Positions 9,932 to 18,882 of a stretch of DNA of 64,000 nt are shown in pieces. The position numbers and the translations under genes are program-made. This stretch comes from Phycisphaeraceae bacterium. GTDB lineage: Bacteria > Planctomycetota > Phycisphaerae > Phycisphaerales > SM1A02. Each line of letters opens with the position of its first letter. Position 1 is the first letter of the stretch. The notes beneath the pieces were generated by a model. The model made no database searches. It was not told the origin of the DNA and saw only the letters and a program-made list of their open reading frames with translations. The stretch is from assembly GCA_015709595.1 (NCBI GenBank), contig CP054178.1, positions 434,001 to 498,000 of the forward strand, read 5' to 3'.

Positions 9932-11725
9932 CTACTCCTTCGTGGCGGTGAACTCGGAGCTGAACACGCCTTCCAGCCCCATCGTGCCCTTCATGTTCCT
10001 GCCGTCCACCTTGCCGTTGAAGGTGACGGGCGATCCGTTGAAGGTGATGGTGAAGCGCAGGTCGCCCGTTTCGGGGTTGAAGAATCCGCGCTCGATGGGG
10101 TTGGTTCCGATCTCGGAGGTGACCGAGCCGCGCACGCGCCCGTCGGCGGCCATCTCGATGGCCATGGTCAGCGCGGTCGCCGCCCCGGCGGGGCTGGTGA
10201 ACTGGGCCTTCCACGTACCGGAAACCGGGCCATCCACCGGCTCGAAGGGTCCGCGCCCCCCCGCTCCCCCGCGGGGACGCTCCTCGCCCGGCGCAGCGGC
10301 CACGTCCGCGGGCTGGCGCGGCAACAGCGTATCGGCGCAGGCCAGGTTGTAGGCGGTAATCGCCGTGGAAACGGACGACTGCACCAGGTACTCCGGCACG
10401 GCGTACCGGGGCGTGTCGTGCTGGGTGTGATGGATGAACTGGTAGTTCTTGCCCTCGCGCCCGCCGGAACCGATTTCATCCCAGAAGAAACCGGGGATGC
10501 CCACGGCGTTGAAGGAGGCGTGATCGCTTCCGCCGCCCCGCGGCATGCGCTCGACCACGCGAATTCTCACCGGCATGTCGGGAAAGGCGGCGTTGACCGG
10601 CGCCACCGCCTGGCGGAGCATCTCGGCCATCGGCTCGATGCATACCAGCCCACCCTGGTAGTTGGTGCCGCCGTCATCCACCAGGCAGGCGGAGATCCTG
10701 GCCTTCTCCTCGTCGCTCAGCGAGTTGACGTAGGCCCGCGAGCCGAGCAGCCCCTGCTCCTCACCCGTCCACAGAATGAAGCGGATCGTCCGCTTGGGCT
10801 GGGCGCCGGCGGCCATGAGAATCCGCGCCGCTTCCAGCGTCACCGATGAGCCGGTGCCGTTGTCCTGCGTGCCCATCGAGCCGGGACCGTCCCACGTGTC
10901 CAAGTGGGCGGAAACGATGATCACCTCGTCCGGCTTCTCCGTGCCGCGAATCTCGGCGATGGTGTTGTACAGCGGGAACGGCCCCTGCACGAACTTGTTG
11001 TCGGCGTTGATCTCGACCTCGACCTCTTCGCCATCCGCCAGGCGACTGTTGAACCGGTCATAGTCGGTCCGGGTGATCATGACGCTCACTTCCGTGGGCA
11101 GGTTGTCCCACTCCAGGTTGCGCCACGAGCCGGAGGTGATGACCAGGTCATTTCGGCTGACGGTGATGTACCCGGCGATACCCGCCTCCTTGAGCACAGC
11201 GGCGAGTTCGTCGCCCACGATCGGCTCCTCACCCACCGGCACGACTCCTCCACGGGTGCGCGGGGGCGTGAGGATCCATGCCCCGGCCAGCTTGTCGCGC
11301 ACCGCCTCCAGTTGCTGCCTGGTCTGCGGCTGGCGGATCACCTGACCGCGCACGGGCCCGTTGGTGCCCGCCGTCCACGAACGGGTGGTGAAGGCGATCT
11401 CCTCCGCGAAGGGTCGCAGCACCTTGAAGTGGCTGGGACCGCGGTCGAAGCGGATGGGAATCTCGCCCCACTGCTGCAGATGGCAGTTGGTCAGCCCCCA
11501 TTCCTCGAACTTGGACATGGTCCACTTGTTGGCGATTTCAAGCCGGGTGGAGCCGGTCAAGCGCGTGCCGATTTCGTGGGAGAGATATTCCAGGTGATTC
11601 CACACCTGGTTGTTCTCCTTGCCCTCCTTGACAATCTTGGCGATGACGGCGGGGTCGCCCTGACCCAGTGCCGGCAACGCGAGGACAATCGACAGAAGAG
11701 ATGCGCTGCGGGCGTGCCTGAACAT
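9932..11725 (-). CDS. Secreted M28-family metallopeptidase
   Basis: A 597-residue zinc exopeptidase resembling carboxypeptidase Q and bacterial aminopeptidases. After a signal peptide (LLSIVLALPALG) comes an M28 core interrupted by a protease-associated domain (about 125-245). Metal ligands are visible: HLDTWD (His274), DNGTG (Asp288), GEEQGLLGS (Glu322/323), VDDGG (Asp350/351) and a His pair near 432. The last 110 residues form a separate beta-rich tail that begins about VDGPVSGTWKAQF and may bind substrate or the envelope. It probably degrades peptides in the periplasm. It lies downstream of the S8 peptidase gene on the same strand, but a 203-base gap with a palindrome suggests its own promoter. 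Confidence 0.9.
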   Translation of the reverse strand: MFRHARSASLLSIVLALPALGQGDPAVIAKIVKEGKENNQVWNHLEYLSHEIGTRLTGSTRLEIANKWTMSKFEEWGLTNCHLQQWGEIPIRFDRGPSHFKVLRPFAEEIAFTTRSWTAGTNGPVRGQVIRQPQTRQQLEAVRDKLAGAWILTPPRTRGGVVPVGEEPIVGDELAAVLKEAGIAGYITVSRNDLVITSGSWRNLEWDNLPTEVSVMITRTDYDRFNSRLADGEEVEVEINADNKFVQGPFPLYNTIAEIRGTEKPDEVIIVSAHLDTWDGPGSMGTQDNGTGSSVTLEAARILMAAGAQPKRTIRFILWTGEEQGLLGSRAYVNSLSDEEKARISACLVDDGGTNYQGGLVCIEPMAEMLRQAVAPVNAAFPDMPVRIRVVERMPRGGGSDHASFNAVGIPGFFWDEIGSGGREGKNYQFIHHTQHDTPRYAVPEYLVQSSVSTAITAYNLACADTLLPRQPADVAAAPGEERPRGGAGGRGPFEPVDGPVSGTWKAQFTSPAGAATALTMAIEMAADGRVRGSVTSEIGTNPIERGFFNPETGDLRFTITFNGSPVTFNGKVDGRNMKGTMGLEGVFSSEFTATKE

Positions 11726-11928: not shown

Positions 11929-13638
11929 TCATTGACGCACCGTCACCTGGACCTGGTCGATGAAGGAATCAAAGTAGTTGGAGGCGGGCGGCACCGTGAC
12001 GACGTGACGAATCATCACCCGGATCCGCCCGGCGCTGTCGATGAAGTTCCCCGCCGGAAGCCCGTTGACGCGCTGCGCCTGCATCGTTCTTCCCAGGGCG
12101 TACTCGTCCACCTTCACCCACTTGTTGGTGGTGAAGTCGCGGAGGAAGAGACGGGCCGTGCCGGCCGGCACACTCAGCCGTGACCGGACCTTCAGGTCGA
12201 TCCCGGAGGGTTGAGCAATCGTTGTCGCGGCATCGACGATCAGGTCCATGCGATGATTGCCGGTCCCAGCAAGGACAGATCGGACCCGCATCTGCCCGCC
12301 CCCCACCTCGATCAGCCCCTGCCACGGCCCGTCACCCACCAGCGACCCCTTGCGGATGATGGCCCCCGTCAGCCAGGTGCCCGACACGTCGTGGGTCATG
12401 GCGGCGGCGGCATCCACCCGACCAACGCCCAACATGCGCTCGTACTCGGGCAGGTTCAGATGATCGATGGGAACGGATGATCCCTCGAGCGCGGTGCGGA
12501 TGGCCAGCGACTTGGAGATCGTCCGGGGCATGTGGGCCACGCGCTGCGAGACCAGTGCCGCCGCGCCGGACACCAGCGCGGTGGAGGGGCTCGTCCCCAG
12601 CCACTCGGCGTACTGGTAGCCCTGCCCGTCGGTGGGAATCGTGCTGTAGATGCCCACGCCGGGCGCTGAAAGAGACGCCTTGCGGTTGTAGTTGCTGAAC
12701 GGGGCCTTGACGTCGTTCTCATCCACCGCCACCACGCCGATGACCTCGGAGCGCATGGCGGGATACTCCCGGGGCTCCTCCCACGCCATGTTGCCTGCCG
12801 CACCGACGACAACGATCCCCTTGGACACCGCCTCGGCGATGGCCTCCTCCACCGCCTTGGCATTATACGTTGACCCGAGCGACATGTTGATCACGTCCGC
12901 TCCCTGATCGATGGCGTAGTACACGCCCGCGGCGAAGAGGAAGCCGTCGCCGTGCCCGTCGGAGTTGAGCACCTTGATGGGCAGAATCTTCGCATCCGGA
13001 GCGACCATCGCCACCAGACCGGCCATGAACGTGCCGTGCCCGTGCGACTCATCGATCAACGTATCGCCGTCGTTGTCCTGCCCGTCGGGCAGGTCGAGCG
13101 TGTTGGCGTTGTCATCGACGAAGTTGTAGCCGTTGGGGAGCAGGCGATCGATGAGTTCGGGGTGCGTGGCGTCCACGCCCGTGTCGAGCACGGCGACAAT
13201 GACGCCCTGGCCGGTGGCGGTCTGATGCGCTTCCGCAAGCCGCAGCGTGGCGCGCGAGTACTGCGTTCCGTAGCGATTGCGCGCGTTGACGCCCGCCACA
13301 TAGAAACTGCCGGTGCGGCCTTCGCCATCCTGCCCGTCGTAGTTGATCTCGCTCCACAGGTAGCCGGGAGGCGGGTTCTGCCGCAGCGCGTTGTTCCACG
13401 CCTCCTCGTTGGTGCCTTCGGGCAGCAGCAGCAGGTGCGTGTTGCGCGTGACGATGGAGCGAAGCGTCTGCGTGCCGTACTGCTGGTTGAAGGCGTCGAT
13501 GGAGTAGCCCGGCGCCAGGCGGATCATCACCTGGAGTTCAATCGGCGGATCTTCCTGGGCCCGAACCGGCACGGCGACGACGGCCGCCGCCAGCGCGGCG
13601 GCGCAGACAAGCCATCGGAAGCGATTGTTCATGTTCAT
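11929..13638 (-). CDS. Secreted S8 (subtilisin-like) serine peptidase
   Basis: A 569-residue subtilase. The ATG at 13638 overlaps the CHAT gene stop as ATGA and has AGGTGGG upstream, so the longer frame is not used. A signal peptide spans about 1-27. Residues 35-100 resemble a propeptide. The catalytic triad is complete: Asp152 (VLDTGVDATHP), His201 (HGHGTF) and Ser350 (GTSPSTALVSG), with oxyanion Asn283. The Ser box is atypical, since most subtilases have GTSMAxP. A 130-residue beta-rich domain follows from about 440. The coupling implies coordinated synthesis with the CHAT/TPR protein, but this enzyme is exported and CHAT appears cytoplasmic. The substrate is unknown. Confidence 0.92.
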   Translation of the reverse strand: MNMNNRFRWLVCAAALAAAVVAVPVRAQEDPPIELQVMIRLAPGYSIDAFNQQYGTQTLRSIVTRNTHLLLLPEGTNEEAWNNALRQNPPPGYLWSEINYDGQDGEGRTGSFYVAGVNARNRYGTQYSRATLRLAEAHQTATGQGVIVAVLDTGVDATHPELIDRLLPNGYNFVDDNANTLDLPDGQDNDGDTLIDESHGHGTFMAGLVAMVAPDAKILPIKVLNSDGHGDGFLFAAGVYYAIDQGADVINMSLGSTYNAKAVEEAIAEAVSKGIVVVGAAGNMAWEEPREYPAMRSEVIGVVAVDENDVKAPFSNYNRKASLSAPGVGIYSTIPTDGQGYQYAEWLGTSPSTALVSGAAALVSQRVAHMPRTISKSLAIRTALEGSSVPIDHLNLPEYERMLGVGRVDAAAAMTHDVSGTWLTGAIIRKGSLVGDGPWQGLIEVGGGQMRVRSVLAGTGNHRMDLIVDAATTIAQPSGIDLKVRSRLSVPAGTARLFLRDFTTNKWVKVDEYALGRTMQAQRVNGLPAGNFIDSAGRIRVMIRHVVTVPPASNYFDSFIDQVQVTVRQ

Positions 13639-16523
13639 GGCAATCCCACCTGAACAAAGGAGGCCCAGCACGCGGGGTGCGGACGGCGTGCCATCATGGA
13701 ACGCTGGGCGCAACGGAGCGCGGCGCTGCGCTCCATCGACCCGGATGCCGCCTGATGATAGAACGACCGCATCAGTTCCAGCGTGGCGTCATCGGAAACG
13801 ATCCACAGCGACGACGTGACCGACGAGGCGCCGGCGGTGAGGAACGCCCGCTGCAGGCCGATCAGCTCCTCGCCGCTCTCGACCGAAGCCAGCCCGGTTT
13901 CGCAGCCGCTGAGGATGACCGCCGCGCCGTCGAGCGACAGCCGCGCCACGTCGCGCATGGTCACCCAGCGATCAGCCAGGCGAATGCCGGACGAGAGCGG
14001 GCTGCCGGGGTCGAAGCGACCGTGAGCGGCGACATGGATCAGCCCGGCGTTGCGGGACGCCTCGGTGAAACGATCGAACGCGGCGTCTGCGCCCAGCAGC
14101 AGCGTCGAGCCGGGCAGCATCGAGGCGACGGCCATCGCCTCCTCGGTGATTCGGGGCGCACGAGCGTCCGCCACGCCGACCACGAGCGTGCCGTGGTCCC
14201 CGTGTGCCGCGTCGAAGTGAGCCGCGATCGTGAGGGAGCGATCTGGTGACCAGGCGCGCTCGCGCAAGTGGGCCAGCAACGCCGCGCTGGGGAGTTGAAT
14301 CACTTCGTTCGACTCAATCAGGTAACGCTCCTCGCCCCACAGCGCGCTGAAGGGCAGCGCGTGGAGCGGACCCCACGGCACGATGAACAGCCGATCGACG
14401 GTTTGCAGGTGCTCCGCCAGCGGACGGATAAGCGCGTCGTACAGCGCGGCGCAGGCGCCCCGAGCATCGGCGGCGAGGCGTGCCTCTCGATCCCCATCCA
14501 GCGCGCCGGGGCGCAGGGCGCGACCAATCTGGAAGTGGAAGCGGCGGACGAGATCCGTCGCCGCACCGGGCGTGCAGCCCAGCTCCCGAACCGTCAGCCC
14601 GTGCGGGGTGACGACGAAGGCCGCCAGCGCGTCACCGATGCGGGCATACTCGATGAGGGCCTCCCTGGTGGAGAGCGTCCGCTGAACCTCGGCAAGCGTG
14701 GCGCCGTGGCTGAAATACGCCGCGACTCCCTGCGTCGCGCTCAGGCGGACTTCGAGCTGCGCGACTTCATCCTCCAGGGTGCGTACGTCGGACCGCCACC
14801 CGGGGTCGGCGGGGCGCCCCTCGTCGAAACGTCGGTACAGATGGTTGAGCCGTCGCTGACAGTCGCCGAGCCGGGCGAGCAGATCCGCCTCCTCCGTCGT
14901 GCGGGCAACTCCCGCGCCGGCGGGGTCGATGACGCCGCGTACGAGATCGAGCAACGAGCGGCTGCGCTGCTGTTCGACGACGTGGAACGCCTCGGCCAGC
15001 GCCTCGGGCGAGCCGACCTCCAGCAGCGCGCGGGCGAGATGACCGTAGGGCTCCAGCCGGTTGCCCAGCAGCGCGGCCCGGAAGCGGTCGGCCTGCAGCG
15101 CGCCGCGCACGCGCTCGATGCGCTCGATGGCGGCGCGGTACTCGACGATGGCGCGGGCGCGATCGCCCCGTGCTTCGCTCGCCTGCCCGCGCAGGTGCAG
15201 CAGGTCGCCCGCCAGCGGCGCAAGGCCGTGCTCCTCCGCCACCGACAGAGCGGCCTCGATCTCCCGCTCGGCCTGAGCGGCGTCGCCCCGCAGCAGCGCG
15301 AGGCGGGCCAGGTGATACCTCGCCGTGGCGGCATCAACCGGACGCTCACGCCACGCCTCCAGGGCGGCGTGGACGAGTCGGGCGGCCTCCTCCATGTCGC
15401 CCGCCAGCACGGCGCGTTCGCTGGCGAGCAGTTCCACGCGGGCCAGTTCGGTGCGCCGGTTCAGGGCGCGAAGCCCGTTCGCCGCCTGATCGAGCAGCGT
15501 CATCGCCTCGGCGGCCCGATTCTGCCTCAGGCGCACGCGCGCCAGCCCCGCGGCGGCCCGGGCGGCGTCGAATGGCTGACCGGCGCGCTCCAGTTTCACC
15601 AGTGCGGCGTCGTAGTCGGCGGCCGCGTCATCGAGCAATCCGAGCGCGGCTTTGGCGTCGGCCTGCTCCACGAGCAGTCGCGCCAGATGCGTGGGCGACT
15701 GGTCCTTCTCCAGCAATCGACGCGCGGACTCGAAGTGGAAGAGCGCCCGATCCAGCCGTCCCTGCCGCGTGGCCAGATCGGCAAGATTGCCCTCCACGAT
15801 CGCCGCGCCCCAGCTCTGCCCGGTCTTGTGAAACGCCGCAAGCGACGACTGAAATGCTTCCTCCGCCCCGTCAAGATCGTTCAGATCGAGGAGCGCTTCG
15901 CCCAGGTTGCTTTCCAATCGCGCCAGGATGCCCGGCTCGTTCGCCAGCGGCCCGCGGGCGCGCTGAAAGTGCATGACGGCGCGAGAGGGGTCGTCTCGCT
16001 TGCGGTGAATGACGCCCAGGTTCAGGTCCGCACGGGCCGCCAGCGCCGGCTCGCCCGCTTCGGTCAGCATGGTCCACGCCTGTTCGCCGGCCCTGACGGC
16101 GTCATCGAGCCGACCCGTCTCGCCCAGCGGGTGGATCGACGCCAGCCGCGCGCGAGCCGCGTGAACCACCTCGCCCGCCTGATCAGCGATGACCGCCGCC
16201 CCGCGGCAGACATCGAGGGCGGCGTGCAGTTCACCGGCATAGGCGAGGGCCTGCCCCAGCGCCCGCCTCGCCCGCGAACGCGCCGCGGGTCCGCCCACCT
16301 GGTCGGCCAGTGCGACAACAATTTCAGCGGCGGCCCTGGCACGGGCGACCTCCACGCCCAGGAGTCGCTCGGCCTCGTCGCCCAGCGCGAGGAGCAGGTC
16401 ATTCACCGCCCCCGCATCGTGCCCTCGAAACTCACGCACCGCCGCGGCGCGCTCCGATGGCGCCAGCCCGGAAAGGGCCTCAAGCAGCGTCGCGTTGGAT
16501 GCGGAGCGATCGGTCATGGGCAT
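13635..16523 (-). CDS. TPR-repeat protein with C-terminal CHAT protease domain
   Basis: A 962-residue protein. Residues of about 60-560 form a helical array of TPR-like repeats (for example AVMHFQRARGPLA, GAEEAFQSSLAAF). The C-terminal third is a CHAT domain, a caspase-fold cysteine protease. The dyad is intact: His834 in IHVAAHGRFD and Cys874 in ILSGCETG. There is no signal peptide. CHAT/TPR proteins are known as activated proteases, such as TPR-CHAT in type III-E CRISPR systems. Here the partners are a sigma factor, an anti-sigma-like protein and an S8 peptidase. The start could also be the ATG at 16517. Bases 14217-14240, in the coding region, resemble a dispersed repeat of the window. Confidence 0.9.
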   Translation of the reverse strand: MPMTDRSASNATLLEALSGLAPSERAAAVREFRGHDAGAVNDLLLALGDEAERLLGVEVARARAAAEIVVALADQVGGPAARSRARRALGQALAYAGELHAALDVCRGAAVIADQAGEVVHAARARLASIHPLGETGRLDDAVRAGEQAWTMLTEAGEPALAARADLNLGVIHRKRDDPSRAVMHFQRARGPLANEPGILARLESNLGEALLDLNDLDGAEEAFQSSLAAFHKTGQSWGAAIVEGNLADLATRQGRLDRALFHFESARRLLEKDQSPTHLARLLVEQADAKAALGLLDDAAADYDAALVKLERAGQPFDAARAAAGLARVRLRQNRAAEAMTLLDQAANGLRALNRRTELARVELLASERAVLAGDMEEAARLVHAALEAWRERPVDAATARYHLARLALLRGDAAQAEREIEAALSVAEEHGLAPLAGDLLHLRGQASEARGDRARAIVEYRAAIERIERVRGALQADRFRAALLGNRLEPYGHLARALLEVGSPEALAEAFHVVEQQRSRSLLDLVRGVIDPAGAGVARTTEEADLLARLGDCQRRLNHLYRRFDEGRPADPGWRSDVRTLEDEVAQLEVRLSATQGVAAYFSHGATLAEVQRTLSTREALIEYARIGDALAAFVVTPHGLTVRELGCTPGAATDLVRRFHFQIGRALRPGALDGDREARLAADARGACAALYDALIRPLAEHLQTVDRLFIVPWGPLHALPFSALWGEERYLIESNEVIQLPSAALLAHLRERAWSPDRSLTIAAHFDAAHGDHGTLVVGVADARAPRITEEAMAVASMLPGSTLLLGADAAFDRFTEASRNAGLIHVAAHGRFDPGSPLSSGIRLADRWVTMRDVARLSLDGAAVILSGCETGLASVESGEELIGLQRAFLTAGASSVTSSLWIVSDDATLELMRSFYHQAASGSMERSAALRCAQRSMMARRPHPACWASFVQVGLP
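14217..14240. repeat. Half copy of family C within the CHAT gene
   Basis: GTGAGCCGCGATCGTGAGGG followed by AGCG at 14217-14240 matches one arm of the full family C elements at 54815-54873 and 59822-59891. It lies in the coding region of the CHAT protein near residues 762-769, and does not disrupt the frame. Confidence 0.6.
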
Positions 16524-16609
16524 GGGTCGGATGCTTCCGGGCCTCCTTGCCCGCGGGACGGATGAATCACTGGTGCGCGCGGTCTTGTCCGAAACACGTC
16601 GCGGAATGC

Positions 16610-17236
16610 TCAGGTCAACTCAAGAGAAGGAACCGTCAGAATGCGCCCGGACACGTGGAGCAGCAGGTCGTACGCTCCCGGCTCCACGAGCAGTTCGAAG
16701 GTGCCGTCCGGCAGCACGGGGCCGTCCGCCGCGACCTCGCGCGTGCCGGGACGGCAGAACGCGACGTGATCCGCCTTCGGCCCGCTCGGACTCATCTGTC
16801 CGATGACGCGGGCCCGCGCGTCGCCGGCGCCGTCGGGCGGCAGCACTTCCAGGTCCACGTCGCCCAGTTCGCAGGTGAAGGAGAGACGCACAACTTCCGC
16901 CGTGCCGCGAAACCCGGCCATGGCCGGCTGGGTGCGGCTGTCGAAGACCAGCGTCGCCAGCACGCGGTCGAGCAGCTCCAGCCACGCCGCCCGAGGCGCG
17001 GCTGCTGAAGCCGGACGAGCGGCGTACATCTGCTTCACACGGGCGACGACCTGCTCAGACGGAGTCGTCGTGTCATCGGTGCGCCACGCAGCGGCCACGG
17101 ACCGCCACGCCTCAACGGTGGCCCGGGCGTGCGGATCGACCTTGACGTGGGCGGCCACCGCGGCGGCCTCGTCGCCGGTCAGATCTCCGCTGGCGTAGGC
17201 GATCAGTTGTTCGTGCGTGATGCTGCGTGACGTCAT
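16610..17236 (-). CDS. Anti-sigma-like protein with C-terminal beta domain
   Basis: A 208-residue protein in the gap between the sigma and CHAT genes. Residues 1-50 (ITHEQLIAYASGDLTGDEAAAVAAHV) have the length and layout of the N-terminal domain of ECF anti-sigma factors, but lack the Cys residues of the zinc motif. The C-terminal 100 residues look like a beta sandwich of the type seen after such domains, ending DGTFELLVEPGAYDLLLHVSGR. No transmembrane segment separates them, so the protein is probably soluble. It most likely controls the sigma factor encoded 137 bases upstream. This is inferred from position and length, not from a firm homology. Confidence 0.7.
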   Translation of the reverse strand: MTSRSITHEQLIAYASGDLTGDEAAAVAAHVKVDPHARATVEAWRSVAAAWRTDDTTTPSEQVVARVKQMYAARPASAAAPRAAWLELLDRVLATLVFDSRTQPAMAGFRGTAEVVRLSFTCELGDVDLEVLPPDGAGDARARVIGQMSPSGPKADHVAFCRPGTREVAADGPVLPDGTFELLVEPGAYDLLLHVSGRILTVPSLELT

Positions 17237-17372
17237 GGTCGTATACCCGCCTTCCGACCTGTAGAGTGTTGCACACGAACCAGGAATACACCCCCTGGGG
17301 ATTTTGCCTTATTTTGGCACACGCCTGAGATGCCCCGATCCCGTCTCTGCCGCAGGAGGCCGTCCTGCCCGG

Positions 17373-17957
17373 TCAGCCGCCATCGGCTCCCCCCGTTGCT
17401 CCGTCCGGCGTGTAGCCCATCTCATCAAGGATGGTCTGCATCTTCCTGAAGCACCTCGCCCGCGTGGGGCCGATGCTGCCGATCTTCATGTTGAGCGAAC
17501 GGGCGATGGCCTCGTATCCCGGTTGCGAGGTGTTGAGGAACAGGGCTTCGAGGAGCGATTTGCACGGGTCGCCCAGTCGCTCCAGGGCGGTACGGACGAT
17601 GTGCTGCCGCTCCCACCGGTCGATCAGGGCGTCAGGCGGGGCGTCGGCTCGGATGTCGCGCTCCTCCAGCGGTTCGTCCTTGGGCTTGCGCCGCCCCAGC
17701 CGCCAGCACTCCCGATGGGCCGTCGTGATGAGCCACGCACTGAGCTTGGTCTGATCCTGCAACTGATCGAGATGACGCAGCAGGATGGCGAAGACGTTCT
17801 GAAAGACGTCCTCTGCGTCGGCGTCGTCCATGCCGTAGCGGCGCGGGATGGAGTAGACCAGCCGCTTGTAACGATCGACCATGGTCTCCCACGCGCGCGA
17901 CTCGCCCGCCAGGCATCGGCGGATCAACGCGGGATCGCTCTGTCGATCGGTGGACAT
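17373..17957 (-). CDS. ECF-type RNA polymerase sigma factor
   Basis: A 194-residue sigma-70 family factor. Region 2, for core binding and -10 recognition, spans about 10-80 and includes RLVYSIPRRYGMDDADAEDVFQNVF and AWLITTAHRECWR. Region 4, the -35 binding helix-turn-helix, spans about 118-180 and contains GYEAIARSLNMKIGSIGPTRARCFRKM. There is no sigma-1.1 or sigma-3 domain. It is the first gene of the minus-strand cluster with the anti-sigma-like, CHAT and S8 genes, so it probably drives that cluster under some signal. Its own promoter was not recognised. Confidence 0.92.
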   Translation of the reverse strand: MSTDRQSDPALIRRCLAGESRAWETMVDRYKRLVYSIPRRYGMDDADAEDVFQNVFAILLRHLDQLQDQTKLSAWLITTAHRECWRLGRRKPKDEPLEERDIRADAPPDALIDRWERQHIVRTALERLGDPCKSLLEALFLNTSQPGYEAIARSLNMKIGSIGPTRARCFRKMQTILDEMGYTPDGATGGADGG

Positions 17958-18192
17958 TGGTGCGGCGCAACCGGAGCATCCATCCGGGGCGCCTCACGGG
18001 CCCCGATACGGTCAGGATCATACGGCGGAGCCGGGCGCCCTCTCATCGCGCGTCCGCCGTGGAATCGAATGAGGGGATGTATCACCCGCCGCGCGTGCCG
18101 CTCTGCTGTGAGGTCGCAGCCACCCGCGTGTGCGGAACCCGGACGCGACCCGCGTTTCCTCCCTCTCTCCAGTTTCCCGGAAGGACCATCCC

Positions 18193-18645
18193 ATGAAGAA
18201 GATGCTTGCCATGACCATCGCCACGGGCGCCCTGCTGCTGCCCCTGGGCCACCTCGCCACGACTTCGATCGCCTCGGCGGCGCCGACGTCGGCCGCCGTC
18301 AGGGCCGACTGGTACAAGGCCGTCGCCCGCCTGCGCGGCCAGACCCTGGCCAGCGGCAAGGGCGTCTACCGCGACCGCGAACGCCGCGCCGGCGTCGAGC
18401 AGCGCCTGGCCATCGAGATCGAGGACGCCGAGCCGAACTGGGTCTACGAGGTTCATTTCAACGGCACGCTGCTCGGTGAGATCACCACCGATGAGTTCGG
18501 CACCGGCGAACTCAACCTGAAGACCGCCCGCTTCATCGACGACCCCGAGGAATGGCAGCCCCTGCCCGAGAACTTCCCCCGCGTGATCGAGGGCGACTCG
18601 CTCACCGTCGGCCCGGTGTCGGGGAATTTCCGCGTGCGGAGCTGA
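18193..18645 (+). CDS. Secreted hypothetical protein
   Basis: A 150-residue protein of unknown function. The ATG at 18193 is preceded by GGAAGGA at good spacing and starts a typical signal peptide (MKKMLAMTIATGALLLPLG...) with a likely cut near ASAA. The mature part is small, acidic and probably beta-rich (WVYEVHFNGTLLGEITTDEFGTGELNLKT). It is monocistronic: divergent from the sigma-factor cluster and followed by a strong hairpin. Confidence 0.72.
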   Translation: MKKMLAMTIATGALLLPLGHLATTSIASAAPTSAAVRADWYKAVARLRGQTLASGKGVYRDRERRAGVEQRLAIEIEDAEPNWVYEVHFNGTLLGEITTDEFGTGELNLKTARFIDDPEEWQPLPENFPRVIEGDSLTVGPVSGNFRVRS

Positions 18646-18797: not shown

Positions 18798-18882
18798 TGC
18801 CGAAGGAGGGAGTCGAACCCTCACGCCTTTATGGGGCACCGGATTTTGAATCCGGCGCGTCTGCCAATTCCGCCACTTCGGC
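18798..18882 (-). tRNA. tRNA-Leu (anticodon CAA)
   Basis: A complete 85-base tRNA on the minus strand. Acceptor arms GCCGAAG (5', 18882-18876) and CTTCGGC (3', 18805-18799) pair fully, with discriminator A at 18798. The anticodon stem CCGGA/TCCGG encloses the loop TTCAAAA, so the anticodon is CAA and it reads UUG Leu. A long variable arm (TGCCCCATAAAGGCGTG) fits a class II tRNA, and GGTTCGACTCC is the T arm. CCA is not encoded. It lies just downstream of glnS on the same strand. Confidence 0.95.

Follow-up and report, generated by a model that had tools for sequence, protein, structure and literature searches.

A conserved ECF sigma factor, anti-sigma-like protein, TPR-CHAT protease and subtilase cassette in Phycisphaeraceae: a possible CRISPR-free, Craspase-like protease-to-sigma switch

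The four-gene cassette and its distribution

Here, we describe a four-gene cassette of a Phycisphaeraceae bacterium, which encodes an extracytoplasmic function (ECF) sigma factor, a soluble anti-sigma-like protein, a cysteine protease with tetratricopeptide repeats (TPR) and a CHAT domain, and an S8 subtilase. It lies in a stretch of 64,000 nucleotides (GenBank assembly GCA_015709595.1, contig CP054178.1, positions 434,001 to 498,000 of the forward strand), hereafter called the window, and may constitute a protease-to-sigma switch that operates free of clustered regularly interspaced short palindromic repeats (CRISPR). Four consecutive minus-strand genes had been proposed in a first-pass annotation made from the sequence of the window alone, and they were borne out, coordinates included (Table 1). 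The sigma gene scored 74.4 bits against the TIGR02937 cut-off of 42.9 and matched Sigma70_r2 (E = 4e-14), the CHAT gene matched PF12770 (E = 8e-61) in addition to containing TPRs, and the S8 gene, whose start codon (position 13638) overlaps the CHAT stop codon in an ATGA, matched the subtilase family PF00082 (E = 3e-47). A single CHAT match was found in the genome with the PF12770 profile.

Table 1. Genes and sequence elements of the cassette, in positions of the window
Feature	Position	Strand	Basis
ECF-type sigma factor, 194 amino acids	17373..17957	minus	TIGR02937 and Sigma70_r2 matches; homologue upstream of CHAT in relatives
Soluble anti-sigma-like protein, 208 amino acids	16610..17236	minus	anti-sigma models and predicted fold
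TPR-CHAT cysteine protease, 962 amino acids, H834/C874	13635..16523	minus	CHAT and TPR domains, Csx29 structural match
S8 subtilase, 569 amino acids, signal peptide, D152/H201/S350	11929..13638	minus	PF00082
Promoter-like element TGTATT-N18-CTCT, sigma/anti-sigma spacer	17263..17290	minus	exact match and motif statistics
Codon of invariant Arg110, anti-sigma-like gene	16907..16909	minus	profile alignment, predicted model
Second promoter-like element TGTATC-N17-CTCT, upstream of divergent gene	18078..18104	plus	exact match
Small exported protein, putative regulon member, ATG 18193	18193..18645	plus	signal-peptide-like start

With the CHAT protein of the window as the query (E of 0.001), matches were found in 60 of 181 genomes of the family, representing 29 of 45 genera, and 60 stretches were retrieved, corresponding to the matches down to an E value of 3e-12 minus G077:C127 and G081:C280. 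Among the loci with room on the contig, the sigma gene lay upstream of CHAT in 48 of 49 (the miss being L088) and the S8 gene downstream in 50 of 54 (the misses being L036, L046, L088, and L091); the CHAT of L088 is a distant one (E = 3e-12), and L091 was matched only in part. Many genomes are incomplete and the loci are related, so these counts are not independent. The genes therefore do not stand apart in all relatives, and the co-occurrence and order on which the module of the first-pass annotation depended are kept: the four-gene cluster is real, and its co-occurrence exceeds chance. Moreover, at least seven genomes (G057, G047, G060, G061, G007, G096, and G076) contained two copies of the cassette, each with its own sigma gene.

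Beyond the family, a scan of named genomes, from which the best 80 loci were retained, revealed at least two of the sigma, anti-sigma and S8 genes at 15 of the top 20 loci by CHAT score versus 2 of the remaining 60. Complete ordered sets occurred outside Planctomycetota in Acidobacteriota (L095, L096, L097, and L101), Chloroflexota (L105), and Actinomycetota (L135, a Modestobacter of the Geodermatophilaceae, and L120, a member of the Ilumatobacteraceae), such that the cassette order was found in at least four phyla. Among 392 drawn Planctomycetota genomes, 27 had a CHAT match at an E value of 1e-100 or better; the draw yielded 30 matches outside the family, and the 29 that were fetched (minus G327:C336) included 11 with a sigma gene upstream as judged by profile, 16 with an S8 gene downstream and 6 with both. 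At 10 of these 29 loci an S8 gene was present and no sigma gene was found, L181 and L192 having little or no room upstream. Flanking gene families recurred around up to 13 loci, in the genera g3, g18, and g28 among the ten loci listed, and this recurrence is a hint of vertical inheritance. In L032, L033, L038, L044, and L046, the cassette adjoins a gene from a single family encoding large proteins, in which FG-GAP-like repeats were recognized by eye.

The anti-sigma-like protein and the two proteases

Four anti-sigma models, including the ChrR type, matched the N-terminus of the second protein (E values from 6.5e-7 to 5.7e-5). Its AlphaFold model (mean predicted local distance difference test score, 87.6) consists of helices up to about residue 71, a linker and a beta-sandwich spanning about residues 91 to 207, and the top Foldseek match of this model was the anti-sigma factor ChrR (E = 5.5e-3; template modeling score, 0.22), no match reaching an E value of 0.001. 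We saw no transmembrane stretch in its sequence. Considering these model matches, the ChrR fold match and the lack of a visible transmembrane stretch, we read the second protein as a putative soluble anti-sigma protein in which an anti-sigma-like N-terminus is predicted to be joined to a beta-sandwich. At an E value of 0.1 or better, CarboxypepD_reg was matched by 9 of 33 relatives (best, 2.6e-8) and zf-HC2 by 4 of 33 (best, 2.8e-4), while the zf-HC2 cut-off was passed by three of five distant second proteins. The ligand motif of class I zinc-type anti-sigma proteins is H-x3-C-x2-C, and it is kept by some relatives, e.g., those at L096 and L098.

An invariant residue of this protein, Arg110, is placed by the predicted model in a coil that borders the beta-sandwich on its N-terminal side. 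It was identical in all 64 profile-aligned second proteins, whose mean column identity was 26%, and an arginine was present in 95 of 95 rows covering its column (98 rows in total), although the profile alignment favors the placement of Arg on Arg, which leaves some doubt about a few distant rows. When 109 loci were searched with a profile built from this loop and the sandwich, 44 of them yielded a total of 48 matches with E values of 1.3e-6 or better, and the only other match had an E value of 0.3; 20 of the 48 were sequences outside the profile. Grouped by CHAT bit score, which is what is meant here by high-scoring CHATs, the beta-sandwich was found at 38 of 44 loci with at least 400 bits, at 5 of 16 with 320 to 400 bits and at 0 of 48 below; it was also matched at L204, whose CHAT runs off the contig, and was not matched at six loci with a CHAT of at least 400 bits (L093, L184, L188, L192, L196, and L200).

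The sandwich also occurs without the anti-sigma domain. In other Planctomycetota (L189, L193, and L197), it follows a histidine-kinase-like gene and precedes CHAT (by eye), and no sigma gene was found there. In Meiothermus (L100 and L102), a GGDEF-HD protein (by Pfam in L100 and by eye in L102) stands between sandwich-only genes and CHAT, and no sigma gene was found by profile. In one group of Planctomycetota, sandwich-only genes come after S8 (L185, L186, L190, L191, and L194), adjoining or replacing versions with a zinc-finger-like start (L181 and L194). Since it is kept with high-scoring CHATs even where no sigma gene was found, the beta-sandwich is tied to CHAT rather than to the sigma factor.

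The first-pass annotation had also recognized two proteases with intact catalytic residues, and this held throughout the aligned sequences (41 of 48 usable CHATs and 37 of 51 usable S8 proteins): His834 and Cys874 of CHAT were invariant in 41 of 41, and Asp152, His201, and Ser350 of S8 (153, 202, and 351 in alignment numbering) in 37 of 37. The CHAT model (mean predicted local distance difference test score, 90.7) had Csx29 (8eey_B; E = 5.8e-17) as its top structural match, with separase next. Asp911 of CHAT was considered as an S1 acid and dropped because nearly all CHATs have it: all 41 in the family and, in the named scan, all 17 open reading frames (ORFs) from cassettes and 71 of the remaining 74.

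As judged from the sequences, the S8 protein of the window has a signal peptide and the CHAT protein has none, which makes cleavage of the S8 proenzyme by CHAT, a possibility raised in the first-pass annotation, unlikely here. A crude hydrophobicity cut of 1.9 was passed by 36 of 52 family S8 proteins, including that of the window, and 15 of the other 16 scored between 1.5 and 1.9. Dockerin-like tails were recognized by pattern on 43 of 52, the S8 of the window not being among them and two of the nine misses being truncated by contig ends. The Chloroflexota S8 proteins of L104, L110, L112, and L115 scored from 0.8 to 1.5 and had no signal peptide by eye, suggesting that both proteases may be cytosolic at these four loci.

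A promoter-like element and its candidate regulon

The spacers between the sigma gene and the second gene have in common the bipartite element TGTATY-N17/18-CTCT. Ten sigma loci were dropped because no start could be assigned, and spacers of at least 40 bases were then counted, including that of the window (10 of 40 were shorter and dropped). GTATY occurred in 25 of these 30 spacers compared with a shuffle mean of 2.1 (maximum of 7 in 500 shuffles), and the bipartite form in 17 of 30 compared with a mean of 0.4 (maximum of 3). Beyond the discovery set, 20 loci with a sigma gene were examined, and GTATY was present in 11 of them (mean of 1.4 and maximum of 5 by chance) and the bipartite form in 5 (mean of 0.2 and maximum of 3). 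GTATY is the cleaner of the two tests, its form having been fixed on the discovery spacers, while the bipartite pattern was rewritten after some test loci had been viewed; the 20 loci did not include L103, L104, and L110, with divergent sigma genes and no GTATY in the spacer, or L209, with a spacer of 4 bases. Among 14 loci where no sigma gene was found near CHAT, none had the bipartite element and three had GTATY alone; one of the 14, L184, shows a weak sigma-profile match elsewhere on the minus strand (E = 9e-05).

From its place and this co-occurrence, we infer that the sigma factor of the cassette reads the element. Because the element lies before the unit formed by the anti-sigma, CHAT, and S8 genes, CHAT is probably induced by the sigma factor. 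The first-pass annotation had put forward a proteolytic module under dedicated transcriptional control, and this idea gains support from the kept gene order, the anti-sigma-like domain and the shared promoter-like element. Its call of an ECF sigma factor also stood, and the accompanying regulator is a putative one, with an anti-sigma-like domain recognized by models below their cut-offs. A promoter of the sigma gene itself was sought in the same way and abandoned, as GTATY upstream of sigma (6 of 42) showed no excess over the chance mean of 4.9; two bipartite matches listed upstream of sigma belong to L043 and L045, whose sigma/anti-sigma spacers are short (27 and 6 bases).

A survey of 1.65 megabases from 61 loci revealed 38 matches to the element, of which 18 fell within the spacer, 8 were divergent of sigma (one of these, in L064, sits inside sigma) and 12 lay elsewhere, a count that is descriptive only because the pattern was tuned on the same spacers. 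The genes behind 12 extra elements near the cassette, in the window and its relatives, include one for a sensor kinase (L036), one for an acyltransferase-like protein (L080) and one for a short helix-turn-helix-like protein (L050), and no clear gene was seen behind the divergent element of L043. In the genome of the window, the exact pattern matched five times compared with twice for a reversed control: once in the spacer, once at a distance of 815 bases, ahead of the divergent gene starting at 18193, and three times inside long, mechanically called ORFs, a soft criterion given that a spurious ORF antisense to sigma (17304-18479) also covers the element at 18078. This second element ends 88 bases ahead of the ATG of the divergent gene, whose product has an Ig-like match (NF058592) below the cut-off; at an E value of 1e-3, none of the 60 loci of the family contained a homologue. 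We regard a regulon made up of exported proteins as no more than a lead.

Candidate mechanisms and known systems

In type III-E CRISPR systems, Csx29 cuts Csx30, the N-terminal domain of which binds an ECF sigma factor while the C-terminal domain is recognized and cut (PMC10028731). The cassette resembles this Craspase (Cas7-11, Csx29, Csx30, and CASP-sigma) in having a TPR-CHAT protease with a His-Cys dyad, an ECF sigma factor and a two-part protein for which sigma binding is predicted, and it differs in having an S8 gene and no RAMP-type (repeat-associated mysterious protein) Cas protein in the genome; the corresponding profile (PF03787) gave no match there and was positive in 4 of 14 control genomes. 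Csx30 is not among the structural matches listed for the second protein, which says nothing against a structural kinship of Csx30 and the beta-sandwich, and the listed matches of the C-terminal part of the second protein (best Z of 7.8) score as unrelated sandwiches usually do.

Given the same parts list as the Craspase signaling arm without RAMP-type Cas proteins, we favor cleavage of the second protein by CHAT and tentatively propose that the cassette is a CRISPR-free, Craspase-like switch in which this cut frees the sigma factor. At rest, the N-terminal anti-sigma domain of the second protein would keep hold of the ECF sigma factor, and the C-terminal beta-sandwich would be docked on TPR-CHAT. 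The TPR part would sense a trigger, upon which CHAT would cleave the second protein, the most likely site being the loop with the invariant Arg110 at the N-terminal edge of the beta-sandwich. The sigma factor so freed would transcribe from TGTATY-N17/18-CTCT promoters, its targets being the divergent exported gene and the anti-sigma/CHAT/S8 unit, the latter of which would provide feedback as well as a subtilase for export.

A number of observations weigh against this proposal. As for the second protein, all four anti-sigma matches fall below the curated cut-offs, the copy of the window has no CarboxypepD_reg match, a weak zf-HC2 match only and an incomplete set of zinc ligands, and the N-terminus is short in some relatives; no sequence match to Csx30 was found for the 208-residue protein in the PDB, the best being NOMO2 (E = 1.6e-4). 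As for the cut, a separase-type cleavage after arginine is not supported: separase reads a P1 Arg with an Asp, which is replaced by K670 in a Csx29 (PMC9729208), and the residue opposite K670 in the cassette CHATs, 915, is not conserved as acidic, 27 of the 41 sequences having L, A, or R there. In addition, the Arg is retained in sandwich-only proteins, which have no anti-sigma domain to release, and may hence have a docking or structural role; the idea that Arg110 is a separase-type P1 residue is weakened on both counts. A cut need not free the sigma factor either, because the N-terminal part of cut Csx30 stays bound to sigma in vitro (PMC10028731 and PMC9729208). As for the output, S8 is missing in L036 and L046, exported-looking proteins lie behind only 4 of the 12 extra elements (L033, L035, L044, and the window), and the AAC and CGT boxes of typical ECF promoters (PMC8103513) are not in TGTATY-N17/18-CTCT.

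A broader form of the same proposal appears possible but doubtful to us, namely, that the loop and beta-sandwich form a portable CHAT substrate module carried by varied regulators and cut at or near the invariant Arg, with Csx29, Csx30, and CASP-sigma as the CRISPR-captured member of an older, widespread class. The module would be attached to an anti-sigma domain here and would stand by itself elsewhere, following a histidine-kinase-like gene in other Planctomycetota and accompanying a GGDEF-HD protein in Meiothermus.

Among the alternatives to cleavage of the second protein by CHAT, ordinary soluble anti-sigma control survives best, although we consider it rather unlikely: the sandwich would sense a ligand and release the sigma factor, and CHAT and S8 would be outputs acting on other proteins. 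The element before the anti-sigma/CHAT/S8 unit, and with it the probable induction of CHAT by sigma, fits such control well, as does the top structural match, ChrR, which is a soluble, ligand-responsive anti-sigma protein with a cupin as its C-terminal domain. The cassette protein shares with the SigE-ChrR system solubility and an anti-sigma-like N-terminus, and it differs by its C-terminal beta-sandwich, its incomplete zinc ligands and its coupling to CHAT and S8. What counts against ordinary control is that the sandwich accompanies high-scoring CHATs at loci where no sigma gene was found, as expected of a tie to CHAT and not to sigma.

Less probable still is that the sandwich protein acts mainly as a securin-like inhibitor or pseudosubstrate, placing its Arg loop in the CHAT active site, with sigma control setting the amount of inhibitor. 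Separase, the next-best structural relative of CHAT, likewise combines a helical repeat with a clan CD protease and ranked high in Foldseek, and retention of the Arg in sandwich-only partners suits an inhibitor; the sigma gene and the anti-sigma-like N-terminus, however, are present in nearly all family loci.

A phage-defense or cell-death module, in line with the conflict role raised in the first-pass annotation, is quite improbable. TPR-CHAT proteases do act in type III-E CRISPR immunity, and caspase systems with an ECF sigma gene have been described as conflict systems (PMC8195603); those EACC2/caspase systems resemble the cassette in placing a caspase-type protease beside an ECF sigma gene and a TPR protein, and they differ in their other constant domains (EACC2), no S8 or beta-sandwich partner appearing in the portion of the description that was compared. 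However, PADLOC returned only BovA (6.5e-05; CHAT residues 814-911) and a subtilase model, neither of them specific to the cassette, the genome contains no RAMP-type Cas protein, the recurring flanks hint at vertical inheritance, and the S8 protein is predicted to be exported. The published proposal for ECF54, in which the proteases control the sigma factor by degrading it directly and an anti-sigma protein plays no part, is highly unlikely to apply, for although PMC8999054 describes the same kinds of neighbor, the carboxypeptidase among them may be an anti-sigma-like protein with a carboxypeptidase-regulatory-like fold.

The first-pass annotation had supposed that the architecture might be new or poorly described, which holds in part. 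The neighborhood itself has been reviewed for ECF54 in PMC8999054, which lists a so-called carboxypeptidase, a subtilase, and CHAT beside the ECF sigma gene, as in the cassette; the example species is Geodermatophilus amargosae, and our full set in Modestobacter (L135) belongs to the same family, Geodermatophilaceae. Unlike ECF54, which is described there without an anti-sigma protein, the cassette has a second protein that is anti-sigma-like in fold and sequence, extends to at least four phyla and is accompanied by a proposed promoter-like element; a carboxypeptidase-type fold, as an ECF54 trait, was matched in 9 of 33 relatives at an E value of 0.1 or better and not in the copy of the window. 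In the literature searched, as far as its available text extends, we found no mention of the element, the invariant Arg, the sigma-less forms or an anti-sigma identity of the second protein. New here are thus the soluble anti-sigma-like/beta-sandwich protein, the promoter-like element, the tie between the Arg110 sandwich and CHAT, and Csx29 as the best structural match of CHAT.

If the ECF54 carboxypeptidase is in truth an anti-sigma factor, as it may be, the published idea of how ECF54 sigma factors are controlled would change. The cassette would represent a CRISPR-free counterpart of the Craspase signaling arm and hints at what Craspase may have been built from. With a candidate substrate, loop, and promoter named, a pure in vitro test is possible.

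Directly downstream of S8 on the same strand lies a gene for an M28 peptidase with a signal-peptide-like start (9932-11725). It was considered as a fifth cassette member and left out, the gap upstream of it containing no promoter-like element by eye. On the other side of the cassette, Rfam identified a transfer RNA gene on the minus strand (18798-18882).

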